Shown here one piece after another: positions 13,771 through 38,159 of a stretch of 64,000 nt of DNA. Location of the stretch: the NCBI GenBank assembly GCA_946811185.2, contig OX328109.1, positions 18,698,255 through 18,762,254 of the forward strand. Reading direction: 5' to 3'. The position numbers were made by a program, and so were the translations under genes. How positions within the stretch are numbered: position 1 is the first letter of the stretch; every line of letters starts with the position of its first letter. The notes beneath the pieces are model-generated. The model saw only the letters and a list, made by a program, of their open reading frames with translations. It had not been told where the DNA came from and did not search any database. The stretch is from Hippopus hippopus. Lineage: Eukaryota > Mollusca > Bivalvia > Cardiida > Cardiidae.

Positions 13771-13775
13771 GGTTT

Positions 13776-16890: not shown

Positions 16891-16899
16891 CTTTTTCAA

Positions 16900-17735: not shown

Positions 17736-17739
17736 TCTT

Positions 17740-17875: not shown

Positions 17876-18039
17876 TACTAACATGGTGTATGGTAACTTT
17901 ATTAAAGTCAATATTTTCCTTATTTTGTCTGATTATACTTTTTCATTTTCCCCCTCAGCTACAATATCCATGTACAATTTTCTTTTATCATCCCTTCAAA
18001 GTTCAATGTTCTTTGAGGTGGTATCTCTGTCCTTTTGAG

Positions 18040-18190
18040 TCAGCAAAGAAATCGTCTTGGGCAAAGCATTTCAGACCCCAGTCGAGTACTTATGAAATCT
18101 GGGAAATACCCTCAGTACATGATAAAGTGAGCTGTTGTTGTGATATTACTGAAATACTGTTGATTGATGGTAAAACACCATTCTGACAAA
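18040..18190 (+). mobile_element. SINE tail (same family as 32575-32812)
   Basis: Shares 'cttgggcaaa', 'gtgagctgttgttgtgatat' and 'gaaat.ctgttga' with the SINE at 32575. The tRNA-like head is absent, as in a 5'-truncated copy. Confidence 0.6.
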
Positions 18191-18780: not shown

Positions 18781-18789
18781 CAGTGCGCA

Positions 18790-19010
18790 GACTTACCAGG
18801 AAACAAAATTTTAGACTTGTTCAAATCCAAAACACATTCAGATGTGGTAGGATTTGTCTTTGGACATATATAGAAAATTTTAGGAAAAGGAGAAAATGCT
18901 TGTTACCATCATTTTCTCACATTGTATTCAAAATTCCCTTTACGCTGTTAAAACTTGGGATTGCTTGGTACATGCTCAAAAAAAAAAAAAAAAAAAAAAA
19001 ATAATAATAA
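18790..19010 (-). repeat. MITE-1, reverse, followed by A-tract
   Basis: 'taccaggaaacaaaatttta' to 'gggattgcttggtacatg', then A(22) and ATAATAATAATA at 18978-19011. Confidence 0.55.
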
Positions 19011-20263
19011 TAACCATGACAATTAGTTACTGTCCATTGCTGTTAATGCTTGTACAATTGATTCCAAGATGTTGGATGTTAAATATTTTTTCTGGGCAGT
19101 GCATGCTGGAAAATCACCTATATAATTTCCTTGAACTGGGACCCTTTGTATCTCCCGAAAACTGACCTATTGGCTCATATAAATATACACAACTGGTAAC
19201 CAGTTCATAACTACCTGCAGCCACTGGTCGGTATGACATGGGTAAGACATACCCCGCAATTATGTGACTTGCATTATATAGTGCTCTTTTTTAATCAGGG
19301 ATTTTTTTTTTTTTAATTAACAGCTCTGATCATTAATGGAGTAAGCTTTGGTAAGTTTTTGGATATCATCCAAATTGGCTTTCAAAGAGTCTTTCAAAGT
19401 TCCACATATTCAAAAACATCCATGATGCAGCACAAACTGTCTTGAAACACTGAATCGATTCCGATGTCCGGAACCAACTCATAGAAAACTTAGACTACTC
19501 CCCACTTCCGGTAAGTTATCACGACGAGCCAGCTTCACTTTGCATTTCATTATTGACCTTGAAAATAGGGTAAAGTAATCACTGTCATTCATTTTTAATT
19601 TTGTAAGTAGAAGGATATTGCTTTATTGCCACGAGTTACAAGGTTTTCCGCAACAGAAATTTATTTGTAAACTTGAACAATCCAATTCTACTTTGTTGGG
19701 ATTGTCCAGTGCTCCCTTCGACATCCATGCGTCCGTAGACACATGTTTTTGTCTGTTTTTAGAACGACCAACATTTTTTATCCTATTCTTATCTAGTGTA
19801 AAATGGCAGGGTTTGAAGTTACTTGTTACCCTTATTGACAAATTTATTTCAGATCATTCAGGAAACCTACACAAAAATTAATTGCCATGAAAAGTAGATC
19901 GCTGCAGAAAAACCGCGGAAACACATGACAACAAAATGTCCCTTTGACATTGTCCGATCAGAGTTACATCAGACTGCTTTCTCAGCTTTTATAATGACCT
20001 TTGGCAGTAATTTTTACATGAATATCTGTATAAAACATTTTTTAATTTTAAATAATCAGTATGGATTGCGTTATGTCTAGTTTGGAACCATTAATGTCAT
20101 CTAGCGTGACATCTTACCAGCAGATTTTGAGCCCAGTAGTAAATGTACCCTTGAAATAAAAAGCCAGTGGGAACACCGAAGTTTGATTACTGAAACAGAT
20201 TCTGTGACTATAATCTGTATAGTCACTTGGGTTTGATAAGCTACTGTCTTCTTGATCGAAACT
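19010..20263 (+). promoter_or_regulatory. low-repeat region, probable MGST3 promoter / 5' UTR
   Basis: About 1.2 kb with few recognisable repeats, in contrast to its surroundings, and more CpG dinucleotides than the flanks (19450-19520, 19900-19930). An ETS-like CCACTTCCG is followed directly by a good splice donor (GTAAGT at 19510-19515), which could end a non-coding first exon spliced to the acceptor at 21212. The placement is inference: the first coding exon of MGST3 has its own acceptor, so an upstream 5' UTR exon must exist. Confidence 0.35.
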
Positions 20264-20381
20264 ATGGTGGCGGCTCCGTCTGCAATTCAAAATGACAGTT
20301 CTTTGATGAAATTTTGGGTAAATCTGGCCATTATTCAACAGGATAGAGGTCAAATAATTTCAAGTAGATTTGGTCCTAAAG
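20264..20381 (+). CDS. candidate first exon or upstream ORF, function unknown
   Basis: An ATG opens 39 codons (MVAAPSAIQNDSS at the start, QDRGQIISSRFGPK at the end) running to a plausible donor (AAAG then GTAAATG). The composition looks protein-like and the region is free of repeats. If spliced to the MGST3 exon at 21213 the frame stops after one more residue, so it would be a 40-residue upstream ORF in the MGST3 leader. Alternatively it is the first exon of another transcript whose later exons I cannot find. I do not recognise the protein. Confidence 0.3.
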
Positions 20382-20963
20382 GTAAATGAAGTTCTTATGG
20401 TTAATTGTAGCAGAGAGATCTGGTTAACTACATAGAACTAAGTTGGTACAAAAGAATAATAAAATTTGAAAGATAGATAAATGTTAAAGGATAAATCAGT
20501 TTGTATACGTTTAAATATTTGGATTAAATTACTCTCTGCAGAACTCGCACCCTTACAAATATGTGGATGTAGTGAATGCTTACTCACAAAGATGGCAAAT
20601 AAGACAGGTTGAACTGTACCATCAGTGTCAGAATTGTGCAGTATTTTTTTCTTTGTGCAGTGAAGGCAAAACACAAAGGAACTTATTACCCTTTTAGGGG
20701 CTTGCACAAAATTGTAGCAATATAGCTGCCGTAGAATTATTTACATCTTGGTTTGCAACCTTGTAGCCTTGGTAAACACTTAAGAAAAAACATTTTATTT
20801 TTCACTTTTGTGTCCAGTCAGGTACTCATCTATCTCTTGCTTTATTGACAGTGAAATTGAAAGTGATGTCAATTCATAAATTTCATAGTTTGTTCCTGTT
20901 TAAATTTCTTGAAAGAAATATTTTGTTTCAGACTTATTTGAGCTCCAAACATGCTCAAGTTTT

Positions 20964-21181
20964 TTAACTCTTTACCACATAATGACAACTTTAACAAAGC
21001 CGAGGAAGAAGCTTTTTGAAAATATTGTAGGAAAAGGAAAAAATGCTGGTAACCAGCATTTTCTCCTATTCCCACAGTTTTCTATTCAATCAAAGAAAAA
21101 TTTGATCTACTATGAAATTGTTGTCTTCAAATGGTTTCAGTTTGGATATGTCTAAAATTTTGTCGTGTGGTAAAGGGTTAA
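20964..21181 (+). repeat. MITE-1, full length, just upstream of MGST3 coding exon 1
   Basis: TTAACTCTTTACCA to GTGTGGTAAAGGGTTAA, core taggaaaaggaaaaaatgct. Ends 31 bp before the exon at 21213. Confidence 0.75.
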
Positions 21182-21212
21182 ACTGATTGGGTTAAGCTTG
21201 ATTTTTGTACAG

Positions 21213-21369
21213 ATTAGAATAAAGAGCAACAATGGCCCACTTGTCAAAGATTGCAGGAGAACTCCCAGAGGGTTATGGATATGTTCTGTTGACTGGTGTT
21301 GGCAACCTTTTCCTGAACTTTTGGATGGCAATGAATGTTGGTAAAGCAAGAAAGCAGTATGAAGTTATG
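21213..21369 (+). CDS. MGST3: MGST3 first coding exon with short 5' UTR
   Basis: Acceptor tttttgtacag precedes a 19-nt leader. ATG at 21232 starts MAHLSKIAGELPEGYGYVLL and the exon ends ARKQYEVM before gtaggt (phase 0). An in-frame TAA lies in the leader at 21220-21222, so translation cannot start further upstream in this frame. Confidence 0.93.
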
Positions 21370-24300
21370 GTAGGTTCTGTATATAGTTAAATTGTTAATT
21401 ATTGCAAATTGAACCTTTACCGCACAATCTTGTGTTACAACAATCAAAAGGATGTAGGCTTCTACAAACATTGTAGAAAGAGGAGAGAGTGCTGGTAACC
21501 AGGATTTTCTTCTTGCTCCACAATATTTTCTACTCTTTCAAAGACAAATTTCTCCAATTGACCCATGTTTAAATTTTCATCTAGAAATCTACAAAAGCTT
21601 TCAAGTTGGACAAGTCTAAAAGTGTATTGTTTGGTAAAGAGTTAAAATCTCTCATTAAAAAATCATTTTGACTTCTTTTTTACCAAACAACAAATTTTTG
21701 GACTGGACCAAATTCAAAGCATCTGCAGACAACAAATTAAATCATGTTAATATGATGATTCCTGACTTTGATAGGGTAGAAAATATTGTGGGAAAAGGAG
21801 AAAATGCTGGTTACCAGTATTTTCTCCTTTTCCCACAATGTTTTCTATAGGCTTCTTTCTCAGGGTCGTTAAAAGTCGGGATTGTGTGGTAGAGTTAAGA
21901 ACAGTGTTCTGCAGAAGAGGTTCCTTTGTAATTCATTTGCATGGTGCTCTTGGAAAAGGGGATTTAATGCATCTGCTGTGATCAATTACATCAAGCATGA
22001 TATCATATAATTATTATCCCCCGCCGAAGGCGGAGGGATATAGTTTTAGCGTTGTCCGTCTGTCCGTCCTTCCGTCCGTCTGTCTGTGTGTCCGTCCGGG
22101 AGAATATCTCCAATACCATTGGACGGAATTTCCTGAAACTTTATACGTTTGTACAATAACCCATTCCGCCGATATACTTTTTTAAAAAAATTTTTGATTC
22201 GATGAAAAATGGCCAACTGGGAGTGATTTAAAGTTATGCAGTCAAGTAAATTTTTCGGCGGGGGATATCATTTCAACGAAATTGCTTGTTGATCCATAAA
22301 ATAAATTTTTCTTTAACAACCAACAGAATCATCAGGTAGATTGTTCTTTGGACATACAGAAAGTTGACCAGTAGCAAAAAGTTTTGATCCAGGTCAGCCT
22401 ACACAGACTGCTCAGGCTTACCTAGGTCAATACTTTCTGCACATGCATCAAACCACCTTTTCACAGAGCATGGCTCATTTGATAAGATGTCTGGAATGTG
22501 TTTCTTGCAGTAAATTTTAAAGTATCATACCTGTATGAGACAGTTGTCGTCTCTTTGAATAAACCTCGACAGAATTCTTTGTCAAGTCTTTACCAGTCAA
22601 AACTTATAGACCGATGTAAATTGAAAGCATACACAGAGGACAAATTGAATATTGGTCAAATTTATAGTATTTTCCATGAAAAGGAAAGAAAACATTGTAG
22701 GAAAAAAAGAAAATGCTGATTACCAGCATTTTCTTTTTTTCCCAACAATGTTTCAAGACCCGTTTTCTCAGTAAATAACACTGAATTGTGTGGTAAAGGG
22801 TTATAAGTCATTTTTGTAAAAAAAAAATAAAAATGACCATAATGTATCTTGGTACTGAAATTAAAGATCGTTGTATTCCTATTGAACACTTTTTACAATC
22901 TGCCTAGACCACAAAAATGATTTACTGGTATGTTTCCTATCACAGTGAAAGGGTAAGTAGAAGAACTAACCATAGTTAAGGAAACACATTTTTCTACCTA
23001 TTTGGCCAAAGGTTAACAGAAGCCTTCCTCCGATAGGAAATTGTGCACCTGTGATTTTCATTGATCAATGATCAGTGAAGTGTTACAAGAGTAATGACCT
23101 TTTTTATTTTTTTTCTCTGATTCAGTGATAAGTTAACCTGCTGTGAGGATGTTTTTTGGCCTTTAATCATTTCTAGATGGCTTAACAATAGATTGATATC
23201 ATACCAGCACATGACTTAACCCTTTAACACACGGCGAAATTCAGACTAGTCGATATTGACGGAATTTACAGACCACGATTTAAATGTTTTGGGAATTCTA
23301 TTTCTTTCCCACAATGTTTTCAGAAGACTTTTTTCTTCAATGTTGTTAAAACTCAAGATTGTGTTGTAAAGGGTTAACTCCTTACCACACAATCCCGACT
23401 TTTAACGACCCTAAAGAAGAAAGCTTTTGAAAACATTGCGGGAAAAGCAGAAAATGCTGGTAATCAGCATTTTCTCCTTTTCCCACAATGTTTTCTACCC
23501 TACCAGACAGAGAAAATCATCATTTTAGCAACAATAAATTTGTCCTCTGCAACTGCTTTGAATTTGGTCCAGTCCAAAATTTGTCGTCTGGTAAAGAGTT
23601 AAACAGTGCTCTTTCATTACAGTACCCACAGATGTACCACGCTGAACCTAAGCACATCTTCAACTGTATACAGAGAGTACATCAGAACACGTGAGTGTCA
23701 TATTAACTCTTTACCAAACAATCCCCTGTTTAAGGACTGTGAGAAAGATTGATTTTGAAAACATTGTGGGAAAAGGAGAAAGAGCTGGTACCCTGTGCTC
23801 AAAGTGGACAAGTGTTAAACTTGATTGTTTCAAAAGGATGAACAGTTTAGTTTTGACCACATGACAAAATTTTTGATGCATTCAGATTGGAAGCACTTGC
23901 AGATGACAAGAGTTGCTTCAAATTATTACATTTGTCTCTTAAAGTGTAGAAACCAGTTGTGAGGAAAGGAGGATATGATGTTTTTCAGCGTTCTCTCCTT
24001 TTCCAACAAGATTTTCAGCAGGTTTCTTTCTAGGGTAAAGTTCACAAGATTGTAATACTGACTTGCTTTGAACTTCTATCTCATTTATCTTATTGCAGCT
24101 GATCTTTGGTGGAGTATCCATGGACAAGAAAATTTGTCTATCTTTTACAAGTGTTGACTCTTTACCTGACAAACAACTAGCCAATTTAGACATGTCTGTC
24201 TTTGTTGAATGAGCCATGCTCTGACAAAAGGGGGCTTAATGCATCTCCGTAATCCATCATACCAAACAAGCCATCACTTACTTAGGGATCCGTAACAGCC

Positions 24301-27300
24301 ACTTTTTAACAAGTAACTTAATCGTGAGGTAGACTGGTCCTTGGACATACTAAAAATTGACTAATAGCGAAAAGTTTCGGCCCAGGTCAGCCTGCGCAGT
24401 CCGCGCAGGCTGACCTGGGTCGATACTTTTCGCAGATGCATTAAGCCTCCTTTTCAAAGAGCATGGCTCATTTTTAGGTGAATAAATAAATACATTCATA
24501 TGATACGAATTATCTTTGAGAGGGTAGAAAACATTGTGGAAAATGGAGAAAATGCTGGTTACCAACATTTTCTCTTTTCCAACAATGTTTTTAAAAACCA
24601 TCTTGGTCAGGGTCATATACCTTTTACCACATAATCCCAGATTTTACGACCCTCATGAAAAGGGATTTTGAAAACATTGTGAGAAAAGTAAAATGCTGGC
24701 ATCTGGCATTTCCTTCTTTTCTTACTATGTCTTCTATCCTTTCCAAAATAAGTTCCTTTATGTGAGCCACATTTGATTTGTCATCTGCAAAATGCTTTCA
24801 AATTGGACTAGTCTGACATTTTGTTGTTTGGCAAAGAGTTAAAGGTTGGGATTATGTGGTACAGGGTTAACATTTGAGAGGAATATACCATATCAGGATC
24901 ATGTGCAGATAACACTCATGTCATAGCTTGTTTTCTTCAGGTATTTTCTAATCAGTTTACCCTGACCAAACGATCATGTGGTTTTATGGCTCTGAGAGGG
25001 GGGGGAGGGGGGGGGAGCATCTGGAAACATTATGAAAAAAGGAGAACCAGCATTTTCATCTTTCCCTTTATATTACTATCCTTTAAAGGTGGGTATTTAG
25101 ATTTTTCACATCTCACCAAATTAAAAAACATATATATCACTGAAATTCATATGAAAAAACAATACAAATCATCAATAATTAAGAATCATAAAATTACAAA
25201 AAAAATTTTTTTTGATGGTGTTCCCTTCAAAGGCTACGTAGCCTCTTAAGGTTATTTTTAGATTTCGCGCCAGAAATCAAAAAAGCATTGTGGGAATGAC
25301 AAGTGACTGGCACGTGACTAATGACGCTTAAATTCCATAACATAACAAACATGAAATTATTTTCCATAATGTCTTCTTCAAATGCTATGTTTGAAGCTTC
25401 ATCTGTGTATTTCCGGTATGTAAATGAGCGAGTTGCTCATTTAAAAATAGACCGTGTTTCCCGTCGGTGTCGAACTGGGCCGTAGTAAATCTCTAATTTC
25501 TCTTGTTGTCGGATGGGTTTCGGCTACTAGGGTTTTATGAATGAAAATTAAAAGGCTTTGGGAGTATAAGGATGATTTTTTTTGATTTTTGTAAAATTTT
25601 CGTCCCAAAATCTGAAGGGCCACCTTTAAAAGAAAAAGAGAAGCTGAGGTATGTTTAGGCTGTCCTCTGCTAATGCTGTCAATGTGGACATAACCAACAT
25701 GTTGCAAATTGGTAGAGAGTTAATGCTAAGTGTACTGAATTTATGAAAATGGCTGTTGAAAGAATCGGTGTTAACTCCTTACCAAACAACAAAATTGCAG
25801 ACTTGTCCCAATTGACTGGTTACCGACAATGCTTTCAAAATCTGTCTTTCTCAGGGGGGTGAAGAGTTGAGATTGGGTGGCAAAGAGTTAGACACCAACT
25901 TTTTCAACTGAGATATATCCTTAACTTTTAACCACACAATCCTGAATTTTAAAGACCCTGAAAGCAAAGGCTTTTGAAAACATTGTGGGAAAAGGAAAAA
26001 ATGCTGGTAACTAGCATTTTCTCCTTTTCCCACAGTGTTTTCTACCCAATCAAGGGCAGAAATCATCACTTGAGCTACGTTAGATTTGTTGTCTGCCTAT
26101 GCTTTCAATTTGGTCCAGTTCAATATTTTATCAATTGGTAATTAGTTAATGGCATCATGGTTTGTCCCCTGTTGTAGATCATAGCATGTATATCCATGCT
26201 TACTGCTATCCTATCCCTTTAAGGACCACAATGGAATAAGGGATCTTTTCCCTTTTTTGTGATATCCTTGGTGCTGATGTGCCTGATATTGTTCTATGCA
26301 TTTCCACCATATTTGACTTCTTATTTGAATATGTTGTGTCTGTTAAAACCATATTATGTACATTCAGTGCTAAATAAAATAAATAGATAAATAAATAAAT
26401 GAATAAATAAACAAAAAAACAAATTAATAAATCCTGGGATTACTAGTGAGACAAAAGCAAGCCCTTTTCCTCATGTTATGAGTTTGTAGTTGTATGATAA
26501 TAAGGCAAGCATTTTTGGCGTTGCCGAATTTGCTGGCTTTTGACCTACTTTTTTGAAGTGATAAAAAATGAATAAATAAAAATTTGTGATTGGTCAAAAA
26601 TGTAGACATGTTTATTTTAAGGGCCTCAGCCTATTTGCGGGCAGAATTATGCCGTCTATCTTTATTAAAGATATTTCTTGTTTCTATACTGAAGGTGTGA
26701 GAGCAACCCCAACTTCTTGTTCTTGCTGTTAGCTGGTGGATTACAGTATCCAGTAAGTAGAAAAAGTACTTCAGTATGAGAAAATGGTGGAAATATTTCA
26801 TGGGGTTTTGTTTGCATTGAAAATGTGTGCTGACTTCCATAGTCAAGCACATCTGAGTTGGTTTGTACAAAAAGGTGATAGCAAGTCCTTAAAATTCTTA
26901 ACTCTATACCAGAAAACAACCTCGTAGATCAGTCCAAATTGAAAGCAATTACAGACAACAAATTGAAGTCGGCTCAAATGACAAGATTTGTCCTTGATAA
27001 GGTAGAAAACATTGTGGGAAAAGGAGAAAATGTTGGTTACCCATTCACATTTGAATTGTTGTTAAAAGTTTGTCCTTTCAGGGTTGTTGGAAGTCGGGAA
27101 CATGTGGTAAAGGGATAAGTGAAATTTAGGTACTGTTATTTACATTGAAGATCAAGATTAGACTGCACATAGCATGCAGTCTGATCTTTGATCTACAGTG
27201 CATAGAGGATATTTTTTTTCGGTGAAAGATTGAAATTTATTTCATCAAGTGAACATCATTGGTAATATGTTCATTCGTGGCTGCATAACTTGTGAAAATA

Positions 27301-30300
27301 TAACTAATGATGTTTACCCGATGAAATAAATCTTGGTATTTCTTTAAAAAGAAAAAAAACAAATACATGTATTGTATTTATGAAATGCTTTTAACCCTCT
27401 TTTTTGTTGGGACTTTAATTTAAATTCAGTACATTTGTTTTCAGTAACCACCCTCACATAACAGTGTATTAAAATATTTCGTAAAGTGCGAGAAATGTAA
27501 GGTAATGTATGTAAAATATGTCATATTTCCCACTAGTTGAATGGCACACACTGTTTGCCTTAGGTAACTAGTGCGTGGAAACTACTGTTTCCACCTTCAT
27601 TTGAAGAGTTAGAAGATATGAAATTTGTATTTTTCTATGGTCGTAATCATGAAATATCAAACCATAATCCACCATTATTTCTTTATAGACTACCGATAAG
27701 CATGTAATAATTTTTGCTATTTTATGAGATGTGTTGCTAAAAGCAGGCACAAAATTGCTGTATTTTTACAAAGAAATAGCTCCTTCTCAGTAAATTTCCA
27801 AAACATTACAATGATTGAATGAAAGATCAGATGATGCATGTTTTACAGTTCATTGTTTTTGTCAATATACACTTTTACCACTTCTGTAGACGTTACTGAA
27901 CAAGGAGATGCATATTTTAAGAGAAGTGGGGAACTTTTCCACTTGCAACAGTGTTTTGCGTTGTATTCATGTTATAGCTCTTTATCAGACAACACAATTT
28001 TAGACCCCTCTAAACTAAAAGGATTTACAAACAACAAATTAGATGTGGCTCTAATTATGGTATGAAATTTGTGGGTGAAATGCTAGAAAGTGCTGGTTAC
28101 CAGCATTTCCTTCTTTTAACCTCACATTCGAAAGCCTTTTCACCATTAGGGTTGGTTATACCTTGAGATTGTTTTGTTAATTCTTTACTACATAATCCCG
28201 AGTTTTAACAACCCTAACAAGGAACGCATTGGAAAACATAGTTGGAAAAAGGAGAAAATGCTGGTTACCAGCATTTTCTCCTTTTCCCAGTATGTTTTCT
28301 ACCCCATCAAAAACAAATTTCATCTTTCAGGCTGGATTTAAATTGTCATCTGCAAATTCTTTGAATTTGGACTAGTCCAAAATTTTGTTGTATGGTTAAG
28401 AGTTAAAGAATCAAACTTTAATTTATGTTCATTATCCATTAAATACAATGTTGTTTTTTTAGTTGTCTGCAATGAAATTGTTATAGAGGTAATACGTGAA
28501 AGGTTTAGCTTGAAAGACTTTCTATATATATTCACTTAAAACATTTCTATCACATTTAACCCTTTACCAAACAACAGAAGTTTAGATTTGCCCAAACTGA
28601 AAGCTTTCAAAGACAACAAAATAGTAAGGACTCAAAAATAGACATTTACCTTTGGAAGGATAGAAAACTTTGTGGGGAAAAGAGAAAATGCTTGTCACTA
28701 ATATTATCTTCTTCTTCCCATAATGTTTTCAAAAGGCTTCTGTAGGGTCGTTAAAACATGGGATTGTCTGGTAAAGGGTTAAAATTCTATGGTGTTTACT
28801 ATGAATTTAGAAAACAACAGCTGCAGCGGGTGTTATATATTTGATAGCAAGAGTAGCCTATGCAAAAGGCTATTATACTGGAGGTATTGTAATAGAAACA
28901 CTTTTTCAACCCTTATAAGGCCTAGAACAACTAAGCTGCCTTCAACTGTATACTGCACAATGCCAATTTTTAATAACCTGGAGGAGGAAGGCTTTTGAAA
29001 ACATTGTTGTAAAAGAGGACAAATGCTGATTACCAGTATTTCCTGCTTTTCGCACATTGTTTCCTCTCTTTCAAAAGACAGGTCTCATCAGTTGAGACAT
29101 GCTTGTCATCTGGAGATGTCATTGATTTGGATAAATCTACAATTTTGGTATGGTAGAGAGTTAAGGGCAGTGTAGATGAAGATGCCTGTACAAAATAGTT
29201 CCACGCTTTGGGTAGACAGGTTTTGTAAGCATAATACAAATAGGAGAAATTCTGTTTGCTATTTCCTCTGGTTCTAAGAATGTTTTCTGCCCTTTCATAG
29301 ACAAATTCTATCAATTTTTTTTTAATGTCTGCAATTGCCTCCAAAATGGACAAGTCTAAGATAGTGTCGTCTGGTAAAGAGTTGACCCTATACTAGACGA
29401 CCAAAGTTTAGACATTTCCAAGTTGAAAGTGTTTATAGATGGCAAATAAAAATGTAAATCATCTGATGTGATTTGTCTTTCAATCCTTTACCACACAATC
29501 CTGAGTTTTAATGACCCTGATTGAGATGGCTTTTGAAAACATTGTGAGAAAAGGAGAAAATGATGGTAACCAGCATTTTCTCCATTTCCCATAAAGTTTT
29601 CTACCCTATCACACACAAATCTCATGATTTGAGCCACATTTGATTTGTCACCCACAAGTGCTGTCAATTTCTTCGTGTGGTAAAGAGTTAAGGATAGAAT
29701 ACACTGGAAGAATGAGAAAGAACCCAGACTTTTAATGACCCAAAGGTAGAAGTCTTTTGAAAACATGGGAAGACTTAGAAGGAAAAATACCTGTAGCCTT
29801 ATTTTAGCATTCTAAGGGCGTGCTACTAATGCTAGACAGCTATTTTAACTTTCCTACATGTACAACCCTCTCCCTCTGCTCTGTAACTCTGCTCTGTATA
29901 AATCTGCTGGTACTGAAGAGAATCTGTTGCAAAAACATATTATTTACTCAAAGGTTTTGCATATATTCTCAAAAATTTATGAACCTTTTTAATACTTTGA
30001 GCGCCACATATTTTTTTTATTCCAACACTTTGTATTTATTTCTCAAAAGCTTATGTACCTTTTTGAACCTTTGAGCACCACATAAACCCAACAGGTGTTT
30101 TATCTGAAACCAGCACTTTTTATACGCCCGTCGAAGACGGGACATATTATGGGATCACCCATGGCGTACGGGCGGGCAGGCGTCCGTCCGTCCGGGTGGG
30201 CGGCGTCCAGTTCTTTGTCCGGAGCATAACTTTGTCATCTCCAATCCGATTGACTTGAAACTTGGCATGTGTGTTTGTTGCAATTATACGGAGTGCAGTG

Positions 30301-33300
30301 CGAAAGAACCATAACTCTACCTGGTGCTGTCTTTGAGTTACTTCCCTTTGATCGTCATTTTTACAGCATTTTCTAATTGTCCGGAGCATAACTTTGTCAT
30401 CTCCAGTCTGATTGACTTGAAACTTGGCATGTGTGTTTGTTGCAATAATACGGAGTGCATTGCAAAAGAACCATAACTCTACCTGGTGCTGTCTTTGAGT
30501 TATTTCCCTTTGATCGTCATTTTTACAGCATTTTCTGCTTGTCCGGAGCATAACTTTGTCATCTCCAGTCCGATTGACTTGAAACTTGGTATTTGTGTTT
30601 GTTGCAATAATTCGGAGTGCAGTGCAAAAGAACCATAACTCTACCTCATGCTGTCTTTGAGTTATTTCCCTTTGATCGTCATTTTTACAGCATTTTCTGC
30701 TTGTCCGGAGCATAACTTTGTCATCTCCAGTCCGATTGACTTGAAACTTGGTATTTGTGTTTGTTGCAATAATTCGGAGTGCAGTGCAAAAGAACCATAA
30801 CTCTACCTCATGCTGTCTTTGAGTTATTTCCCTTTGATCGTCATTTTTACAGCATTTTCTGCTTGTCCAGAATATAACTTTGTCATCTCTAGTCTGAACA
30901 TCTTCAAATTTGGTATGCATGATTGTTGAAAATTTACAGAGTGCAGTGCACAAGAACAATAACTCTTCCTAGCACAAATTTTTAGTTATTTCCCTTTGAT
31001 CGTCATTTTTACAGCATTTAGTGCTTGTCCGGAATATAACTGTCATCTCAAGTCAGAGTGACTTCAAACTTGGTATGCATGTTTGTTGCAATATTACAAA
31101 GTACAGTGCGCAAGAACAGTAACTCTACCTAGTGCGGATTTTGAGTAATTCCACTTTGATCTTCATTTTTACAGTATTTCTTGCTTGTCCGGAACGGAAC
31201 TTTGTCACCTCAAGTCAAATTGACTTGAGACTTTGGTAAACATGTTTGTTGCATTACCTGCCCTTTACGATTATTATACCCCCTCGACAACTGGTGGTGG
31301 GACGGGCGCATCTTGCGACAATTTGCCACTCTTGTTCCTTTTTCCATGCTCTCTAGATGTTCTTTGTAGATGAGACAAATCTCATCAGTTAAGGTCTACG
31401 GCCACTAACTCTCATATTAAAAGACGGAAGCTGCCGAGATTGGCCGAATAGCCTTTACGAAAACTTCGATGTTACACGAAATTTACCGATGAGTTAGTGA
31501 GTCTAAGGCTCCTAACTCTCATATTAAAAGGCGGAATTTGCTGAAATTGGGCAAATAGCCTTTACAAAAACGTCGATGTTACATGGTATTTACCGATGAA
31601 TTAGGGGTCTTATCGTTAAACCTCATTTAATTTGTCATCTGCAAATGTCTTTAATTTGGATAAAGATTTGGATATCGTTGTTGGCTAAAGAGTTAAACCA
31701 TATTTAGCTTATTAAACTAACCTCTGAGAAAACCTTAGCAAAGATTTTTCATATCAGTCTGTTTTTGTCTTGGTCTGCACTTTCGTACACTCATTATCAG
31801 TTATGTAATCTTTACTATTCTCATAGAATCCACCTGTACCTTGCACAAAATGATTAGGCCCAATAATTATGTGAGGTGACTTGAAACTAGATTTCAAGCA
31901 AGCTTTCAAGACAATGTTACCAAAAAAAAAAAAGATTATTTATATTGACCAGCAAAGATCATTTGTTAACCAAAATACAGGCAAAAAATACAGGTTTCTT
32001 CTTTTTCTGCAGTTTGGACCAGTCTAAAATTTTTTCGTTTGGAAAAGAGTTAACTTGAGTGTGCTTATAATTATCTAATTTGCTTTTCCTGCTACCTATC
32101 AGAAATGCTGTGCCTGTGCTGGAGTAGTTTACCTTTCAGCTAGAGTTGCTTTTGCCTTTGGATATTACACTGGAGGTAGGACACAAGGGCCTTTATCCAC
32201 CAACCATTCTTGAGAACATTCTTTGTCTTATTTTTAAGAATTTTCTAAATTTGAAAGTTACACAACTTCTGATTGGCTAAAGCAACCAGTTGATTCAGTC
32301 AGTGAAAAGTTGTGTTACTTTCTCATTCTAGGATAAGACTGTGAATATAGCTAGGAATATTTGGTGAATAAAGGCCCCGTTAGTTTTACTGTTATGCTGC
32401 TGCCAACCCTTAGAGTGCCGGATAAACAGAATCAAAATTTTTATGGAACAAAAAAAATTTGGTTCTTGTTCAAGGCTGATATTCGCCAGAATGTCCGAGT
32501 GCAGCAGACAGTGTAGATCTAAGATCAGTAACTGTTTTTGTGTACTGTGTAGTCTGAACTTGATCTTGGGGTCCGGGGTGGCTCAATGGTAAAGTGTAAG
32601 ACTGGTAACCTGGAGGCCCTTTGTTTGAGCCTCACAGGAGAGCACTGGGTTTTTTGTAAGAGTGTCCTTGGGCAAAACACTTAACAGCCCTAGCCTAGTA
32701 CTTGCAAAACCCAGGACATACATGAATATGTGAGCTGTTGTTGTGATATGACTGAAATGTTGTTGAGAGTAGCATGAAACACCATTTAACAAATCAACTA
32801 ATCTAGATCACTGTCCACAGAGGCTACTAAAATTGTTAACGGTGCTTTATGGTAAGTAGTATGACCAATGCTGAGCTTTTCTGCCCTATATACCTGATAT
32901 ATTTTAACCCTATACCAGACAGCTACAGTTTAGAACAACTTCTTATTGAAAGTGCTTGTAGTATTTGTGCAGCAAAGTAAGTGATGCCTAATTACTGGTA
33001 GATCTAGGAGGATTTGTCTTTGAAAGAGTTGGAAACATTGTTGGAAAAGGAGAACAAAATGGAGGAAATGCTGGTTACCATCATAGTCTCCTTTTTGCAT
33101 GGCATTTTCAAAAGCATTTTTCTTAAGGATGTGAAAAACTCGGGATTGCTTGGTAAAGGGTTGATACACCTAACAGAGTAACCTCTGCACTGTTGGAGCT
33201 GTATTTTCTGCTAGAGATGAGTTTCAAGTGATTTTCAATAATCTGTACATACTGATGATTTACAATGATTTTTTTATTTTTAGCTCCACTGGCCAAAGGC

Positions 33301-36061
33301 CAGCAAGCTATTGTCATGGCGTTGTGTCCGTCGTGCGTCCGTCCGTCCGTTCGTCCGTGCGTGCGTCCGTAAACTTTTTCTTTAAAAAACTTCTCCTCAG
33401 AAACTATTGACTGGATTTTTACCAAATTTCACAGGAATGTTCCTTTGGTGGTCCTCTTTCAAATTCCTTCAAATAATTGTGTTCCATGAAGAATTCTGGT
33501 TGCCATGGCAACCAAAGTAAAAAACCTTTAAAAATCTTCTCCTCCCAAACCGCTATTTGGATAGCATTATTATTTTGCAGGAATGTTCCTTAGCTACAGG
33601 TTTACAGAATTCCTTAAACAAAAAAAAATCTGTCAAAAAACATGGCTTTTATGGGAGACTCATTTTCCTTTTATGGTATAAAGTAAAATCTTTGAAAAAT
33701 TTCTTCTCTAAAACTATTCATTGGATTTCATTGTTGTTTTGCAGGTAAGTTCCTATGGTGGTTGTCTACCAAATTGTTTCTTCAGTGAGCTAAAATGCAG
33801 GATTGAATGATAATTGTTAAAAACTTCCTTTTGCCATTATAGAAATATCAGGCCTGTGGAGTGATACAGGCGCTCAAGCGCCTCTAGTTTTAGCTAAACT
33901 GGCAGAAAGCCAGTGGGCTTATTCATGGCCCGGTGTCGGTCGTGTGTGTTTGTGCATCTGTCTGTGCATCCATGCGTGCGTGGGTGCGTTAACTTTTATT
34001 TCAAACATCTTCTCTGAAACTACTCATCCAATTTTGATGAAACTTCACAGAAATGATTCTGTCATTGTCCTCTTCAGAATTTCTTGAAAGAATTGGATTC
34101 CTTCAAAAGCTCTGGTTGCTATGGCAACAAAACTGAAAAATACTGAAAATCTTTGAAATCTTCTTGTCTGAAACCATAAGGCCTAGGGCTACCAAATTTG
34201 GCAGGTAGCTTTACCTACTGGACTGCTACCAAGTTTCTTCACATTAAAACCCTGGGGTCAAATTTGGCCCCACTCTAGGGGTCACCAAGTTTTATATGGG
34301 CTTATATAGGGAAAACTTTCAAAATCTTCTCATACCTAGCCATAAGGCCTAGGGCTACCAAATCTAATGGGCCTCTACCAAGAGTGCCCAAATTATAGCC
34401 CTGGGGTCAAATTTGGCCCCCGTCCCGGGGGTCACAAGTTTTACATGGGTTTATATAGTGAAAACTTCAGAAATCTTCCTGTTACTATCCATAAGACCTA
34501 GGGCTACTAAATTTAGCCCTGTCTCAGGGGTCTCATGTTTTACAGGGCCTTTTATTGAGGAAACTTTGAAAATCTTCTTGTTTATAACCACGTATTCTTT
34601 GCCCTGGGGTCATAACTTTCTCATGGGATTTATAGAAAAAAATTTGTTTGTCTTCTGGTTCGAAACCAATTGGCCAAGTATTGTAATGTTTGGCTTGTAA
34701 TTTTTTTACTTGTTAGCCAGTGGAGCAATACAGGGCCATCATGGCCCACTTGTTTCATCATTAGATGGTTATATCTTTATTGTTTTGTCAAATATAAACC
34801 TGAGAACCCTTTTTTCTGTAATGCTAATTACCCCTTTACCATACAATACTGATTTTTAACGACCCTGAGAAAGAAGCCTTTTGAAAGCATTGTAAGCATT
34901 GCTAACCAGCATTTTCTCCTTTTCCCACAATGTTTTCTCCCCTTCCCAAAACAAGTTTCAATTTTTCACTCACTTTTATTTCGTCCTCTGTTAATGCTTT
35001 CTATTTCGACTAGTCCGAAATTTTGTGGTTTGGTAAAGAGTTATGTCTGTTCTGACTTTGTCAATTTTATTGCCAGAATATCCTAGGGATACCTACGATG
35101 AAGAACAAATTTGAATGAGACAGAGTCAATCTAACTTTTGTCTTAAATTTATAGTGATCAAAAATTGTGTATTAATATGAGAACCCTTTTTCTGTAATGC
35201 TAATTTGGACTGTTCCAAACTCTTCAAATTTTATGTAGAAAAAGCGAATAGGAACACCTACTGTGAAACACAGATTTGATTAGAATCAGTCAATGTAAGA
35301 TCTGTTTGGAATTTATACAGTCTAAAAATGGTGTGATAGGAGTTAAGATTTCCAATGGGAGCAATCAGAAATGCTGCTGCATTATTTTCTTAGGGGAATA
35401 TTAAATTATATAATGCATTAACCTTGTTAAGAAGCAGTGCAGTGTTCAGTGACCCTGAGGTAAACGGCCTTTAGATGGGAAAAGGAGAAAATGCTGTTTA
35501 CCACAAGATTTTCTACTGACAAACAATGCCCATTGTTATAAGACATTTAACCTATTACCAGACAAGAAAATTGAAAGCATTTTCAGAAGGCAAATCAAAC
35601 GTGACTCAAATAATGATTTTTGTTTGCAAAAGTGACTAAAACATTGTGGGAAAAAGAGAAAATGCTGCCTACCAGTGTTTTTTTCCCCTTTCCTACAATG
35701 TTTTCAAAAGCCATTTTAATCAGTGTCATTAAAACTTAGTAGTGTTTGGTTAAGGGTAAATTTGTAATTTGTTATTAGCTTTCAGTCTTTGCTATTCTAA
35801 AATTTAATTGTCTAAGAATCTTATAAATTACATTTTTTTCTGCAGATTCAAATATATTTGCAATATTTGTGAAACATTTTCATTTATAGATAGTAACCAA
35901 ATCATGTGGATATGATATAACATATGTATACTCTTATTTACCTAATAGATCCAGCCAAGAGAAGATGGGGTGCATTTGGACATTTAGCTGAGCTGGTACT
36001 TCTAGGGTCCACTGTCTCATTTGCCATTGACCAACTTGGTTGGTGGCCATTTAATGCATAA
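21232..36061 (+). CDS. MGST3: MGST3 (microsomal glutathione S-transferase 3) with alternative exon 4
   Basis: MAPEG-family integral membrane enzyme using glutathione for conjugation/peroxidase reactions at the ER. Coding exons: 21232-21369, 23623-23690, 26695-26752, one of 28811-28883 or 32103-32175, and 35949-36061 (TAA at 36059). The product is 149 residues (human about 152). Visible features: TM1 about residues 19-41; IFNCIQRVHQN at 58-68, matching the vertebrate IFNCIQRAHQN; TM2 from about 76; TM3 in exon 4 ending GYYTG; TM4 about 126-146. The start is fixed by an in-frame TAA seven codons... upstream within the same exon (21220-21222) and by alignment of AxLSK...EGYGYVLLTG. The two exon-4 versions cannot be combined, since 146 nt would shift the frame. 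Introns hold MITEs, SINEs and tandem elements. Confidence 0.95.
21409..21645 (+). repeat. MITE-1 copy in MGST3 intron 1
   Basis: TTGAACCTTTACCGCACAAT to TTTGGTAAAGAGTTAA, core with gagagagtgctggtaaccag. Confidence 0.65.
21668..21898 (-). repeat. MITE-1, reverse, strong palindrome
   Basis: 'tttttaccaaacaacaaatt' to 'ttgtgtggtagagttaa', core tgtgggaaaaggagaaaatg nearly perfect. Lies 22 bp from the previous, oppositely oriented copy. Confidence 0.7.
21937..22480. mobile_element. 'gagccatgctctg' MITE split by a family D element
   Basis: Left arm (gcatggtgctcttggaaaag...ttaatgcatctg) and right arm (gcatcaaaccaccttttcac...gagcatggctcattt) are inverted repeats. 22014-22290 is a later insertion. 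Confidence 0.65.
22014..22290 (+). mobile_element. family D element ('cccgccgaaggcgg'), 277 bp
   Basis: 5' hairpin CCGCC-GAA-GGCGG, then a GTCC/GTCTG microsatellite (22050-22100). A subterminal TTTTTCGGCGGGGGATATCA is inverted to the 5' end, and the 3' end is GCTTGTT. No core repeats in this short copy. Confidence 0.7.
22582..22804 (-). repeat. MITE-1, reverse copy
   Basis: 'gtctttaccagtcaaaactt' to 'tgtgtggtaaagggttat', core taggaaaaaaagaaaatgct. Confidence 0.65.
23216..23377 (-). repeat. MITE-1, internally deleted
   Basis: TTAACCCTTTAACACACGGC to TTGTAAAGGGTTAA with the left half of the palindrome missing. Shares TTAA 23374-23377 with the next copy. Confidence 0.7.
23374..23602 (+). repeat. 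MITE-1, full length, 20 bp before MGST3 exon 2
   Basis: TTAACTCCTTACCACACAAT to CTGGTAAAGAGTTAA. Near-consensus palindrome (gcgggaaaagcagaaaatgc). Confidence 0.8.
23623..23690 (+). CDS. MGST3: MGST3 coding exon 2
   Basis: Acceptor ttcattacag, donor gtgagt. Encodes YPQMYHAEPKHIFNCIQRVH then QN(T). The FNCIQRxHQN motif is the MAPEG signature loop with Arg, His and Asn that contact glutathione in the family. A MITE-1 copy ends at 23602, only 20 bp upstream. Confidence 0.95.
23704..23830 (+). repeat. MITE-1, deleted copy
   Basis: TTAACTCTTTACCAAACAAT start and core gtgggaaaaggagaaagagc, then a jump to 'caaagtggacaagtgttaaa'. Begins 14 bp after exon 2. Confidence 0.55.
23845..24060 (-). repeat. 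MITE-1, reverse, diverged
   Basis: 'ttttgaccacatgacaaaat' then 'gaggaaaggaggatatgatg', 'cgttctctccttttccaaca'. Confidence 0.5.
24208..24473. mobile_element. 'gagccatgctctg' MITE, complete
   Basis: About 266 bp. Termini AATGAGCCATGCTCTGACAA and AATGAGCCATGCTCTTTGAA (other strand) are inverted repeats, continuing into the poly-A/G and TTAATGCATCT motifs. Inside is the GC-rich palindrome cagcctgcgcagtccgcgca. Confidence 0.75.
24510..24615 (-). repeat. MITE-1, central part
   Basis: 'gggtagaaaacattgtggaa' core and 'aaccatcttggtcagggtca'. Confidence 0.5.
24616..24842 (+). repeat. MITE-1, near full length
   Basis: 'taccttttaccacataatcc' to 'gtttggcaaagagttaa'. The core palindrome is less perfect. 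Confidence 0.65.
24990..25020 (+). repeat. poly-G tract
   Basis: gaggggggggagggggggggg-type run (24994-25017), similar to G-runs in the 40-51 kb array. A degenerate MITE-1 core follows. Confidence 0.6.
25205..25330. repeat. 'ctacgtag' dispersed repeat
   Basis: Contains aaaggctacgtagcctctta, then gatttcgcgcc and cacgtgac. A homologous copy lies inverted at 56745-56855. Confidence 0.5.
25770..25892 (-). repeat. MITE-1, core-deleted
   Basis: TTAACTCCTTACCAAACAAC to GGGTGGCAAAGAGTTAG with most of the palindrome deleted. Confidence 0.55.
25921..26149 (+). repeat. MITE-1, full length
   Basis: TTAACTTTTAACCACACAAT to ATTGGTAATTAGTTAA, core tgtgggaaaaggaaaaaatg. Confidence 0.7.
26368..26432 (+). 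repeat. AAAT microsatellite
   Basis: Interrupted (AAAT)n run: aaataaatagataaataaat and onward. Confidence 0.8.
26509..26692 (+). repeat. ~180-bp dispersed repeat ending at MGST3 exon 3 acceptor
   Basis: Shares aaaatttgtgattggtcaaa, aatgtagacatgtttatttt and aaagatatttcttgtt with 54812-54992. Its last ~25 bp form the pyrimidine-rich acceptor of exon 3. Confidence 0.65.
26695..26752 (+). CDS. MGST3: MGST3 coding exon 3
   Basis: Acceptor atactgaag, donor gtaagt. 58 nt encoding CESNPNFLFLLLAGGLQYP, aligning without gaps to the vertebrate LEVYPPFLFFLAVGGVYHP. The polypyrimidine tract lies in the tail of a dispersed repeat (26509-26690). Confidence 0.9.
26898..27117 (-). repeat. MITE-1, reverse copy
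   Basis: TTAACTCTATACCAGAAAAC to CATGTGGTAAAGGGATAA. The right half of the palindrome is replaced. Confidence 0.6.
27150..27200. repeat. 'gcagtctgatctt' hairpin
   Basis: Arms 'gatcaagattagactgcaca' and 'gcagtctgatctttgatcta'. Same hairpin as the centres of the elements at 61448 and 62822. Confidence 0.6.
27225..27336. repeat. inverted repeat hairpin
   Basis: Arms 'gaaatttatttcatcaagtg' (then aacatcatt) and 'aatgatgtttacccgatgaa' (then ataaatc) flank ~50 bp. MITE-like. Confidence 0.55.
27350..27970. other. MGST3 intron 3, nothing recognised
   Basis: AT-rich intron without a repeat I can delimit. Open frames here are unremarkable. Confidence 0.4.
28177..28406 (+). repeat. MITE-1, full length
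   Basis: TTAATTCTTTACTACATAAT to ATGGTTAAGAGTTAA, core gttggaaaaaggagaaaatg, near-perfect. Confidence 0.75.
28556..28782 (-). repeat. MITE-1, reverse, 28 bp upstream of exon 4a
   Basis: TTAACCCTTTACCAAACAAC to GTCTGGTAAAGGGTTAA, 227 bp. Orientation opposite to the copy at 28941-29164 on the other side of exon 4a. Confidence 0.75.
28811..28883 (+). CDS. MGST3: MGST3 exon 4, version a
   Basis: Acceptor gaatttag, donor gtattg. 73 nt encoding KTTAAAGVIYLIARVAYAKG then YYTG, aligning with the vertebrate IASGLGLAWIVGRVLYAYGYYTG (TM3). Same length, start phase and end phase as the version at 32103-32175. It differs there at Tyr105/Phe and Lys107/Phe. It is bracketed by two MITE-1 copies in opposite orientations. 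Confidence 0.88.
28941..29164 (+). repeat. MITE-1, forward, 57 bp downstream of exon 4a
   Basis: 'ttcaactgtatactgcacaa' to 'ggtatggtagagagttaa', core gttgtaaaagaggacaaatg. Confidence 0.65.
29481..29691 (+). repeat. MITE-1 copy
   Basis: 'caatcctttaccacacaatc' to 'gtgtggtaaagagttaa', core gtgagaaaaggagaaaatga. Confidence 0.65.
30121..31336 (+). mobile_element. family A element with 162-bp core repeats
   Basis: 5' hairpin CCCGTC-GAA-GACGGG, then gtccgtccgtccg, then about 6-7 units of ~162 bp marked by TTGTCCGGAGCATAAC (near 30216, 30378, 30540, 30702, 30864, 31027, 31188). Units 1-4 are most alike. The 3' end is CACTCTTGTT. Because 162 is a multiple of 3, a 270-codon minus-strand frame stays open (30147-30959), which is a repeat artefact. 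Confidence 0.75.
31398..31614 (+). repeat. ~107-bp tandem duplication inserted in a MITE-1 remnant
   Basis: Two diverged units each with ctaactctcatattaaaa, tagcctttac and atttaccgatga. The flanks (gacaaatctcatca and cctcatttaatttgtcatct) are the right half of MITE-1, which ends at 31696. Confidence 0.6.
32103..32175 (+). CDS. MGST3: MGST3 exon 4, version b
   Basis: Acceptor tacctatcag, donor gtagga. 73 nt encoding KCCACAGVVYLSARVAFAFG then YYTG. It is interchangeable in phase with version a. Three cysteine codons occupy positions where version a has Thr/Ala. A separate 'attcaccaa' MITE begins 10 bp after the donor. Confidence 0.88.
32186..32378. repeat. 'attcaccaa' MITE starting 10 bp after exon 4b
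   Basis: Termini agggcctttatccaccaacc and tttggtgaataaaggcccc (inverted). Best-preserved copy of this family. Confidence 0.7.
32575..32812 (+). mobile_element. tRNA-derived SINE, second family
   Basis: A-box-like 'ggtggctcaatggtaaagtg' and B-box-like 'gtttgagcctc'. Body with cttgggcaaaacacttaaca and gtgagctgttgttgtgatat, and a tail of caaatcaactaat type. The 5'-truncated relative is at 18040. Confidence 0.7.
32900..33163 (-). repeat. MITE-1, reverse, diverged
   Basis: 'ttttaaccctataccagaca' to 'ttgcttggtaaagggttga', with an enlarged centre. Confidence 0.55.
33281..33889 (+). mobile_element. family B element, short
   Basis: TAGCTCCACTGGCC start with 5' hairpin CTGGCC-AAA-GGCCAG, gtccgtccgtccgttcgtcc microsatellite, and 3' hairpin GGCGCT-CA-AGCGCC followed by TCTAGTT. 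Confidence 0.7.
33891..34754 (+). mobile_element. family B element, abutting the previous one
   Basis: 5' hairpin ACTGGC-AGAAA-GCCAGT, ~160-bp units marked by 'ccctggggtcaaatttggcc', and a 3' hairpin ending ATGGCCCACTTGTT. Confidence 0.7.
34828..35044 (+). repeat. MITE-1 copy
   Basis: 'ttacccctttaccatacaat' to 'gtttggtaaagagttat', with half the palindrome shortened. Confidence 0.6.
35546..35757 (-). repeat. MITE-1, reverse copy
   Basis: 'tttaacctattaccagacaa' to 'tagtgtttggttaagggtaa'. Confidence 0.55.
35949..36061 (+). CDS. MGST3: MGST3 last coding exon
   Basis: Acceptor cctaatag. Completes an Asp codon and reads PAKRRWGAFGHLAELVLLGS then TVSFAIDQLGWWPFNA and TAA. It matches vertebrate PSKRSRGALGSIALLGLVGTTV...HLGW. 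The tail is shorter than in vertebrates and lacks the Cys-Cys-His end. Confidence 0.93.
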
Positions 36062-36372
36062 TAGAAGAGTGATTTTCTTCTATCTGTATGAGTAAGGTAT
36101 GTATGGGTGAGGGATGGGTAAGGTATAGGTATCTGATTGTTACTCTGTCAAATTTTCTAATACATTTATTAGTAGTTGCTGTGTAAGCCCTCATAATACA
36201 TGCTCATGTTTGACATATAAAGCAATGCAAATCACTTTCAAAAAAGGACTTTTCAAAAGATGGTAGATATCAATTTTGAATAGTTTGAAAAAACACTGCT
36301 TTTTTTCAAGCAATTTGCTTTCGTTGATGGTTATCTTGGAAAACAGCCAGTTGCTTAGGAAGAATGTTTTGG

Positions 36373-36482
36373 GGAGCACTGGTAAAAAGAACCTCCAGGA
36401 AAGCATGAACAGGTGTACTGGCAACAGCAATATAACTGAAATGATGTAGAAAATGGTGTTAAACACCATACAGTAATCAAGC
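36373..36482 (+). mobile_element. SINE tail (same family as 6026-6334)
   Basis: Shares 'aagcatg.a.aggtg.actgg', 'atataactgaaatgatgtag' and 'ggtgttaaacacca' with the SINE at 6026. Head missing. Confidence 0.6.
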
Positions 36483-36800
36483 AGTTTGCTTCTTTTCTCA
36501 TAATGCTATTAAAAGCTGCCAGCTGCTGGATGCACAGAACATTACAGCATAAGGAACAATTGCTCCTATGGAGCAGTTTCTATTTTTGCCACCCTGTTTT
36601 AACTTGGTTGTATTATGGTATTATGCCTTTAATATTCATTATCCTTATGTTATAAGAATGTAATCAAAGCTTCTGCTGCAAATTTTTATTCTCGATGTTA
36701 TGAGTTAACTCTTTACCAAACAACTGAGTTTTAACGACTTTTTTTGGAGAAGCCTCTCAAAAATACATTTTTTCCCTTTCCTCAAAATGTTTTCTGCCTT

Positions 36801-37029
36801 TTAACTCTTTACCAAACAACAAAATTTTAGACTGGTCCAAATTGAAAGCACTTGCAGATGACAGAATAAACGTAACTCAAAAATTAAAATTTGTTTCCAG
36901 CAGGGTAGAAAACTTTGTGGGAGAAGAAGAAAATGCTGGTTACCAGCATTTTCTCCTTTTCCCACAATGTTTTCAAAAGGCTTCTATCTCAGGGTTGTAG
37001 AAACCAGGGATTGTTTGGGAAAGGGTTAA
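36801..37029 (-). repeat. MITE-1, full length
   Basis: TTAACTCTTTACCAAACAAC to TTTGGGAAAGGGTTAA with strong palindrome. Flanked on both sides by MITE-1 fragments (36705-36800, 37040-37127). Confidence 0.75.
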
Positions 37030-37228
37030 GAGACAAATCCCATCATTGAAGCCTCATTTAATTTGTTGTCTGCAAATGTTTTCAGTTTTGGACAGAGTAA
37101 AATTTTGTTGTTTGGTGAAAAGTTAAAAGAACAAAGAACAAAATTAAAGATTGACATTTTTTACATTATCAGGGTAGATTTGTCTGGTATATATGGGGGG
37201 AAAAATCACATAATGTACATTATTTGAC

Positions 37229-37454
37229 TTAAATCTTTACCCGACAAAACTATTTTAGACTTGTCTGAACTGAATGCATTAACTGACTATATGCATGTAC
37301 ATTAGTTGTGGCTGCAATGATAAGATGTGTCTGTGAAAGGCTAGAAAACATTGGGAGAAAGGGAGAAAATGCTGGTTTTCTCCTTTTCATACAATGTTTT
37401 CAAATTTGTCTATTTTAGGGTCCTTCAAACTTCGTATTTCTTGTAAAGGGTTAA
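37229..37454 (-). repeat. MITE-1, reverse copy
   Basis: TTAAATCTTTACCCGACAAA to TTCTTGTAAAGGGTTAA, core partly deleted. Confidence 0.65.
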
Positions 37455-37481
37455 TATCCATTGTTTGAGAGAGCAAGTAGG

Positions 37482-37708
37482 TTAACCCTTTACCACACAA
37501 TCCCAACTTTTAATGACCCTGAGGGATAAGCTTCAAAAAACATTTTGGAAAAGGAGAAAATGCTAATAACCAGCACTTTCTCCTTTTCCCACAATGTTTT
37601 CTATCCATTAAAAGACAAGTCCAATCATTTATGCCACATTTAGTTTGTCACCTGGAAGTGCTTTCAATATGTATGAGTCTAAAATATTGACATTCGGTAA
37701 AGGGTTAA
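37482..37708 (+). repeat. MITE-1, full length
   Basis: 227 bp, TTAACCCTTTACCACACAAT to ATTCGGTAAAGGGTTAA. Ends 50 bp before the acceptor of the candidate 3' UTR exon (37759). Confidence 0.8.
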
Positions 37709-38159
37709 GCGTTGTTGATAGTACGTAAGTATTATTTGATTTTTGTTTTCTGTTTTAGACAATTCCCATGCAGGCCATTATGTCAATGAAGAGAAGGAAC
37801 TCTATCACAGAAAGTGTGAAAGTGTTTTAGCAGACAATCTAATTTTAGATAAAAATCAATGAACATAAAACAGTTTTCAGGGTAATATGATCAAAGTTGG
37901 TAAACATGCTCAGTGTGGTTTTTTTTTTTTTGAGGTATGATTCTTGGAGTTTGTTAGCATCACTGTACTTTTGTTGTATTGATCATGACTCGTATTTATA
38001 GATAGACTCTACTAGTGGATTTTTTTTGTATACCTTTTTTTGTGTGTGTGAAGGATTTTTTTCTGTATTTGTTGATTCTATAAATTAAAGAATTAATTAA
38101 AGGTAATTATTTAGAAAAGTATTACTAAGATGCCCAGTGTATCTCAAGGTTTTATTCCT

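Follow-up and report, generated by a model that had tools for sequence, protein, structure and literature searches.

A 64-kb stretch of the Hippopus hippopus genome (C14:18698255-18762254; "the window" below means this whole stretch) contains on its forward strand a complete coding gene of the MGST3 type of MAPEG enzymes, in which exon 4 is present in two copies, 4a and 4b. These copies are probably tandem-duplicated, exchangeable cassettes for the third transmembrane helix that are spliced one at a time, i.e. in a mutually exclusive manner. Such splicing had been predicted in the initial annotation of this DNA, and it is well supported by the anatomy of the gene, by its frame logic and by the constraint on both copies.

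Organization of the MGST3 gene and its two fourth exons

The introns of the gene have GT-AG borders. Each copy of exon 4 is 73 nt long, is preceded by AG and followed by GT, is entered in phase 0 and leaves one base over, a G that completes a GAT (Asp) codon with exon 5; these features had been described in the initial annotation, which also placed the end of exon 3 (26752) and the start of exon 5 (35949) correctly. Exon 4a reads KTTAAAGVIYLIARVAYAKGYYTG and exon 4b reads KCCACAGVVYLSARVAFAFGYYTG, each followed by the single extra base. The three cysteines reported earlier near the start of version b are residues 90, 91 and 93.

We searched the window with exon-wise hidden Markov models (HMMs) made from 133 homologues and both window isoforms (133–135 rows per model), the isoforms thus being among the training rows. 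The 133 homologues include the best 120 of 1197 proteins from one search, and the family counts given below cover only these. On the six-frame open reading frames (ORFs) of the window the exon 4 model matched exactly twice, at 28811–28882 (independent E-value (i-E) 4.8e-13) and at 32103–32174 (i-E 2e-12). Exons 1, 2, 3 and 5 gave one significant match each, the remaining exon 2 lines having i-E values of at least 0.42. The same six exons were recovered by tblastn with homologues, the window isoforms and a human MGST3 sequence, and a repeat finder independently paired 28846–28886 with 32138–32178 (76%). Duplication of other exons of the gene within the window was rejected on the basis of the tblastn results and the single HMM matches. 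Exons 4a and 4b are flanked by the single exons 3 and 5 and are internal, being neither terminal exons nor parts of tandem genes.

Splicing in silico with either copy alone gives an open protein of 149 amino acids, and the Pfam MAPEG domain is found in both forms (87.5 and 81.5 bits, cut-off 23.4). With both copies included, translation would end at codon 126, inside 4b, and with neither it would end at codon 101, within exon 5, which bears out the earlier statement that the frame is shifted in both cases. In equal length, phase, splice-site type, homology, internal position and a length that shifts the frame, 4a and 4b are like mutually exclusive exons in general (PMC3228551, PMC5740500, PMC9741552, PMC6071210), and all features by which such exons were predicted in the first of these papers are found in the pair. 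On the Drosophila X chromosome, 90 of 16,180 otherwise-annotated exons (0.56%) share the features of mutually exclusive exons (PMC3228551). Validated cases in these four papers rest on junction reads, whereas the MGST3 pair is known from DNA alone.

The named proteins closest to the window gene are Mercenaria, Mactra, Dreissena and Haliotis records (66–70%), most of them named MGST3 or GST 3. In a 17-row tree made from the protein without exon 4, the window gene groups with Mercenaria, Dreissena and Mactra (8 rows, support 96/97) and is the sister of a JGI protein, P0003 (99/94).

Table 1. Coordinates of the MGST3 exons and of features associated with them in the window.
Feature	Position	Strand	Evidence
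Coding part of MGST3 exon 1 (46 codons, ATG onward)	21232..21369	+	homology and GT donor
MGST3 exon 2, 68 nt	23623..23690	+	homology, exon HMM
MGST3 exon 3, 58 nt	26695..26752	+	homology, exon HMM
Repeat copy with its end 28 bases upstream of exon 4a	28555..28782	-	repeat search
Exon 4a (73 nt), version a of helix 3	28811..28883	+	AG/GT borders, exon HMM, splice-site scores
Intron 4a-4b, 3219 bp, with repeat copies and 162-bp tandem repeat	28884..32102	+	repeat finder
Partial repeat copy, ends 49 bases before exon 4b	31984..32053	+	repeat search
Exon 4b (73 nt), version b of helix 3	32103..32175	+	AG/GT borders, exon HMM, splice-site scores, P0025 match
MGST3 exon 5 to stop codon, with candidate catalytic Arg (R117/R118)	35949..36061	+	homology, alignment
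Possible 3' untranslated region (UTR) intron, donor AAG/gtatgt, acceptor ..ttttag/A	36097..37758	+	one of several similarly scoring site pairs

Constraint and relatives of the two copies

Both exon 4 cassettes are intact and have been under long constraint. They are identical at 43 of 73 nt and at 17 of 24 residues, and the 30 nucleotide differences are split 7/6/17 over the codon positions. By the NG86 method the proportion of synonymous differences (pS) is 0.87, which is saturated and beyond correction, and the nonsynonymous distance (dN) is 0.33. Neutral decay to 30 differences left a mean of 7.5 to 9.0 shared residues in simulations, and 17 or more in none of the 20,000 runs of each of two modes; the simulation assumes that constraint was lost at duplication and is compatible with a recent loss. 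Exon 4a is typical of the family (log-odds 65.0 versus a leave-one-out median of 62.2, 135 rows), and 4b retains all six exon 4 positions with conservation in 120 or more of the 133 homologues (95, 102, 106, 108, 109 and 112). The neutral simulation, the exon HMM and the match to protein P0025 described below led us to reject 4b as an ORF arisen by chance or as a copy long in decay. Exon 4a shares 17 of 24 residues with 4b and about as many, 16 of 24, with the Mercenaria record, so that the duplication may be about as old as the split from Mercenaria, an estimate that rests on 24 residues.

P0025, an ENA record of 155 amino acids from a contig of 1,077,026 bases, is a conceptual ORF; it begins in a copy of a repeat family also present in the window and continues into an exon 4b (KICACAGVVYLSARAAFAFGYYTG). 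It agrees with window 4b at 22 of the 24 exon residues and at five of the seven residues read directly upstream of the acceptor; it also matches the window at the two residues read across the donor, and farther out the introns are unlike. We searched the assembly to which the window belongs (1.07 Gb, 34 contigs) with the 4b piece, and the three matches at E ≤ 10, all of which were scored, were 4b, 4a and an exon 4 of a second MGST3-like locus on C6. No second P0025-like exon was found there, in agreement with a search with isoform a (12 of 12 candidates scored); the search with the 4b piece misses distant copies, and a second exon 4 of the C6 locus went undetected by it. P0025 as a paralogue within this assembly was therefore rejected. 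Exon 4b is kept in a second genome as well, most likely that of a related species or of a different individual.

The exon 4 segment of P0003 is identical to 4b at 18 of 24 residues and to 4a at 16 of 24, and it has in common with 4b Cys93, a residue found in 2 of the 133 homologues, and Phe105. P0003 comes from a JGI contig of 1355 bases and is therefore probably a spliced transcript, which hints, and no more, that a 4b-like exon enters mature mRNA in a relative.

The second MGST3-like locus of the same assembly, on C6, has two blocks of exons 2–5 with a single 73-nt exon 4 each, in the same phase. Of the MGST3-like loci found in this assembly, only the window gene has exon 4 in duplicate. In the C6 locus (C6:53930001-53960000, offsets 6959-25692) two adjacent first exons, 6959-7060 and 7285-7386, are followed by the two exon 2–5 blocks, and no exon 1 was found between these blocks with the exon HMMs. 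This layout could reflect one gene nested in another, or a single locus in which alternative first exons are combined with alternative blocks; the first exon and the block that have diverged more may form a pair. Another peculiarity was seen in the Haliotis MGST3 records P0009, P0046 and P0050: H. asinina X1 and H. rubra X2 agree at 107 of 110 residues up to the exon 4/5 border and at 21 of 30 beyond it, the X2 records of two Haliotis species, taken as the comparison pair, agreeing at 101 of 110 before the border and at 25 of 30 after it. This is a hint that abalone MGST3 may have alternative last exons.

The helix encoded by exon 4

In the AlphaFold2 model of the homologue P0003 (149 amino acids, same numbering, mean pLDDT 93.4), which stands in for the window protein (77% to isoform b), the four-helix MAPEG fold is predicted and the third long helix comprises residues 88–109. 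By this model exon 4, residues 89–112, would encode one membrane helix and a turn. The model matches 33 solved chains at E ≤ 0.001, each of them LTC4 synthase or MGST2, with TM-scores of 0.66–0.79 when normalized by query length. The gene product would have the same fold as these two proteins (e.g. 6sss, 2uuh), which are relatives of MGST3 and not MGST3 itself.

In MGST2, Asn55 and Glu58 are on helix 2 and Arg90 on helix 3, the thiol-activating Arg104 is at the start of helix 4, and activity is lost in Arg51 mutants and falls to 26% in Tyr97Phe (PMC7979937). R102 and Y109 of the window protein align to Arg90 and Tyr97 of MGST2 (numbered as in that paper) and are identical in 4a and 4b. The counterpart of Arg104 is R117 or R118, as two alignments differ by a gap; both lie in the shared exon 5. 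The description of exon 4 as the catalytic-helix exon in the initial annotation thus stands in so far as the exon encodes helix 3 with the counterparts of Arg90 and Tyr97; these two residues, however, do not differ between the copies, and the Arg that activates glutathione (GSH) lies in exon 5.

The two versions differ at seven residues: 90, 91, 93, 97, 100, 105 and 107. Residue 105, Tyr in 4a but Phe in 4b, aligns to residue 93 of LTC4 synthase, a Tyr that binds GSH there, and both Tyr and Phe are common in the family (81 Y, 50 F and 2 A among the 133 homologues). Residue 107 is Lys in 4a and Phe in 4b, an unusual change, with Phe in one of the 133. By a helical-wheel test, the seven changed residues did not significantly avoid the side of the helix that faces GSH (mean direction 174 versus 294 degrees, P = 0.17). 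Since the aligned Arg90 and Tyr97 are identical, the catalytic Arg is in the shared exon and both Tyr and Phe are common at 105, the earlier proposal of two enzymes with different active-site walls is weakened; what it retains is mainly the Tyr105/Phe105 difference. The sequences fit better with two forms of the same basic chemistry, which would share GSH binding and the catalytic Arg and would differ, through the seven residues, in helix 3 packing or in lipid or substrate contacts.

A wider reading, that the exon 4 pair is an old splice switch of bivalve, perhaps molluscan, MGST3s, of which each gene model records one state, and that it retunes the contact with lipid or lipid-peroxide substrates and leaves GSH chemistry untouched, is tentative and in our opinion rather doubtful. 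Equally tentative are the types that it would entail, an a-type helix 3 with Lys107 and Tyr105 and a b-type with a hydrophobic residue 107 and often Phe105. A clean split of molluscan MGST3s into a-type and b-type was weakened once the 133 homologues were compared. Among them residue 107 is K in 53, L in 33, R in 14, I in 7, H in 6 and another residue in 20, and the exon 4 tree, with 24 columns, separates 4a-like and 4b-like sets at a support of only 57/95. Protein clusters at 90% identity hide isoforms, so that the Mercenaria "isoform X2" may or may not owe its name to exon 4.

Splice choice, alternative explanations and precedents

Splice sites were scored with simple matrices. Exon 4a has values of -0.66 at its acceptor and 3.44 at its donor, and exon 4b of 7.63 and 8.34; elsewhere in the gene the acceptors range from 3.8 to 7.9 and the donors from 7.2 to 9.1. 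By these scores 4b looks like a default exon and 4a like an exon that needs help. We infer that exon 4 of a bivalve MGST3 was duplicated in tandem long ago, which gave two cassettes for transmembrane helix 3, between which the choice would be a contest of a weak-sited, probably enhancer-dependent 4a with a strong-sited 4b, and that wrong products would be lost by truncation, perhaps with nonsense-mediated decay (NMD). Enforcement of exclusion by a frame shift at the protein level has been proposed for many human cases (PMC5740500). The product with both copies has its stop 32 nt before the 4b-exon 5 junction and 180 nt before the junction of the possible UTR intron, and that with neither copy 109 nt before the latter; with only 32 nt to the 4b-exon 5 junction, NMD of wrong products would need an intron in the 3' UTR. 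A tissue- or stress-dependent choice, as suggested earlier, is a guess.

Steric blocking by a short intron was rejected as a mechanism of exclusion, since 3219 bp lie between 4a and 4b. Around the two copies 33 pairs of long inverted repeats were found; these, as far as the 25 listed pairs go, are mostly copies of one common repeat with 60 loci and thus provide no evidence for docking/selector pairing. This palindromic repeat, which resembles a miniature inverted-repeat transposable element (MITE), occupies 60 merged loci and 11.7 kb of the window (e.g. 23305-23605 and 28555-28782) and has many matches elsewhere in the assembly. Copies of it lie less than 50 bases from several exon borders of the MGST3 gene, so it may carry or disturb splice signals. 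The 4a-4b intron also includes a tandem repeat with a 162-bp unit at 30215-31322, the minus strand of which is open for 273 amino acids (30147-30968) with a DUF4971 score of 32 bits (cut-off 31.3) and no stretch that passes alone; both the open strand and the score are probably by-products of the tandem repeat. Upstream, the plus strand ORFs 10094-10573 and 11956-12387 may hold exons of another gene. Neither had a Pfam match at E 0.01 (7 of the 21 listed ORFs were scanned), and the first looks WD40-like, although this is an impression only. An Rfam scan of the window at gathering scores gave no match.

The difference between the splice sites of 4a and 4b, and the repeat copy that ends 28 bases before 4a, would also suit an exon replacement in progress, in which the strong-sited 4b is the working exon and 4a, its acceptor weakened by the inserted repeat, is rarely or never spliced. 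We consider this unlikely: exon 4a is free of stops and scores above the family median, and the adjacent repeat has some age (72.7% to another copy), so that an early loss would be expected to show as more damage. The strong sites of 4b favour its inclusion, and inclusion beside 4a places a stop inside 4b; 4b could then be a spare or poison exon that truncates the product of a working 4a and lowers gene output. With a real UTR intron the last junction would lie about 180 nt past that stop; without one the distance from the stop to the last junction is just 32 nt. There is no need for a poison exon to retain a helix, yet 4b has preserved 17 of 24 residues as well as the conserved Arg, Gly and Tyr, and P0025 keeps 22 of the 24 residues of 4b, which makes this explanation still less probable. 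Least probable is that 4a and 4b belong to different transcripts of a complex locus, with separate promoters or an overlapping paralogue, and are not alternatives of one transcript. The paralogous C6 locus has such a layout, and the abalone records diverge after the exon 4/5 border; in the window, however, 4a and 4b are internal and of fixed phase, and with no second exon 1, 2, 3 or 5 there a translated product must join the same neighbours.

Mutually exclusive cassettes remain the best explanation of the pair, and several observations weigh against it. The acceptor of 4a is poor, at the 54th percentile of all AGs in the window, and 4a is perhaps little used; 4b is atypical for the family, its log-odds of 50.1 being at the 10th percentile of 135 rows. 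P0025, as a conceptual ORF, says nothing about exon use, the preference of P0003 for 4b amounts to two residues only, and among the protein records compared no named species could be demonstrated to have both copies.

By analogy, the closest precedent for the MGST3 exon pair is the oyster AOX gene. In Crassostrea the last exon of AOX, exon 10, is tandem-duplicated, and two forms with a stress-dependent ratio were found by cDNA (PMC5589949). As in MGST3, the gene encodes a bivalve stress enzyme in which one exon is tandem-duplicated and either copy gives the same protein length; the AOX copies are about 64–66% alike in DNA and one is more conserved across taxa (PMC5589949), and the MGST3 pair is similar. 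Unlike the terminal AOX exon, whose splicing was seen in cDNA, the MGST3 exon is internal, its choice would be enforced by the frame, and the pair was recognized in genomic sequence. Vertebrate OGDH, with its exons 4a and 4b, is likewise a metabolic enzyme gene with two alternative internal exons; exclusion there involves distant branch points and a size-restricted, transposon-poor intron (PMC7969005), whereas the MGST3 intron of 3219 bp is filled with repeats.

Among the matches listed in a search of the open-licence literature, titles and the starts of abstracts reported neither exon duplication nor mutually exclusive exon use for MGST3 or any other gene of the MAPEG family. As far as this literature goes, MGST2 and LTC4 synthase are not known to have an alternative helix 3 exon. 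If the proposed splicing is true, a MAPEG enzyme would have a single membrane helix exchanged through alternative splicing, and oyster AOX would be joined by a further bivalve redox gene that was diversified by exon and not by gene duplication. The two forms, seven residues apart in one helix, would then be a natural experiment on the role of helix 3 in membrane glutathione enzymes.

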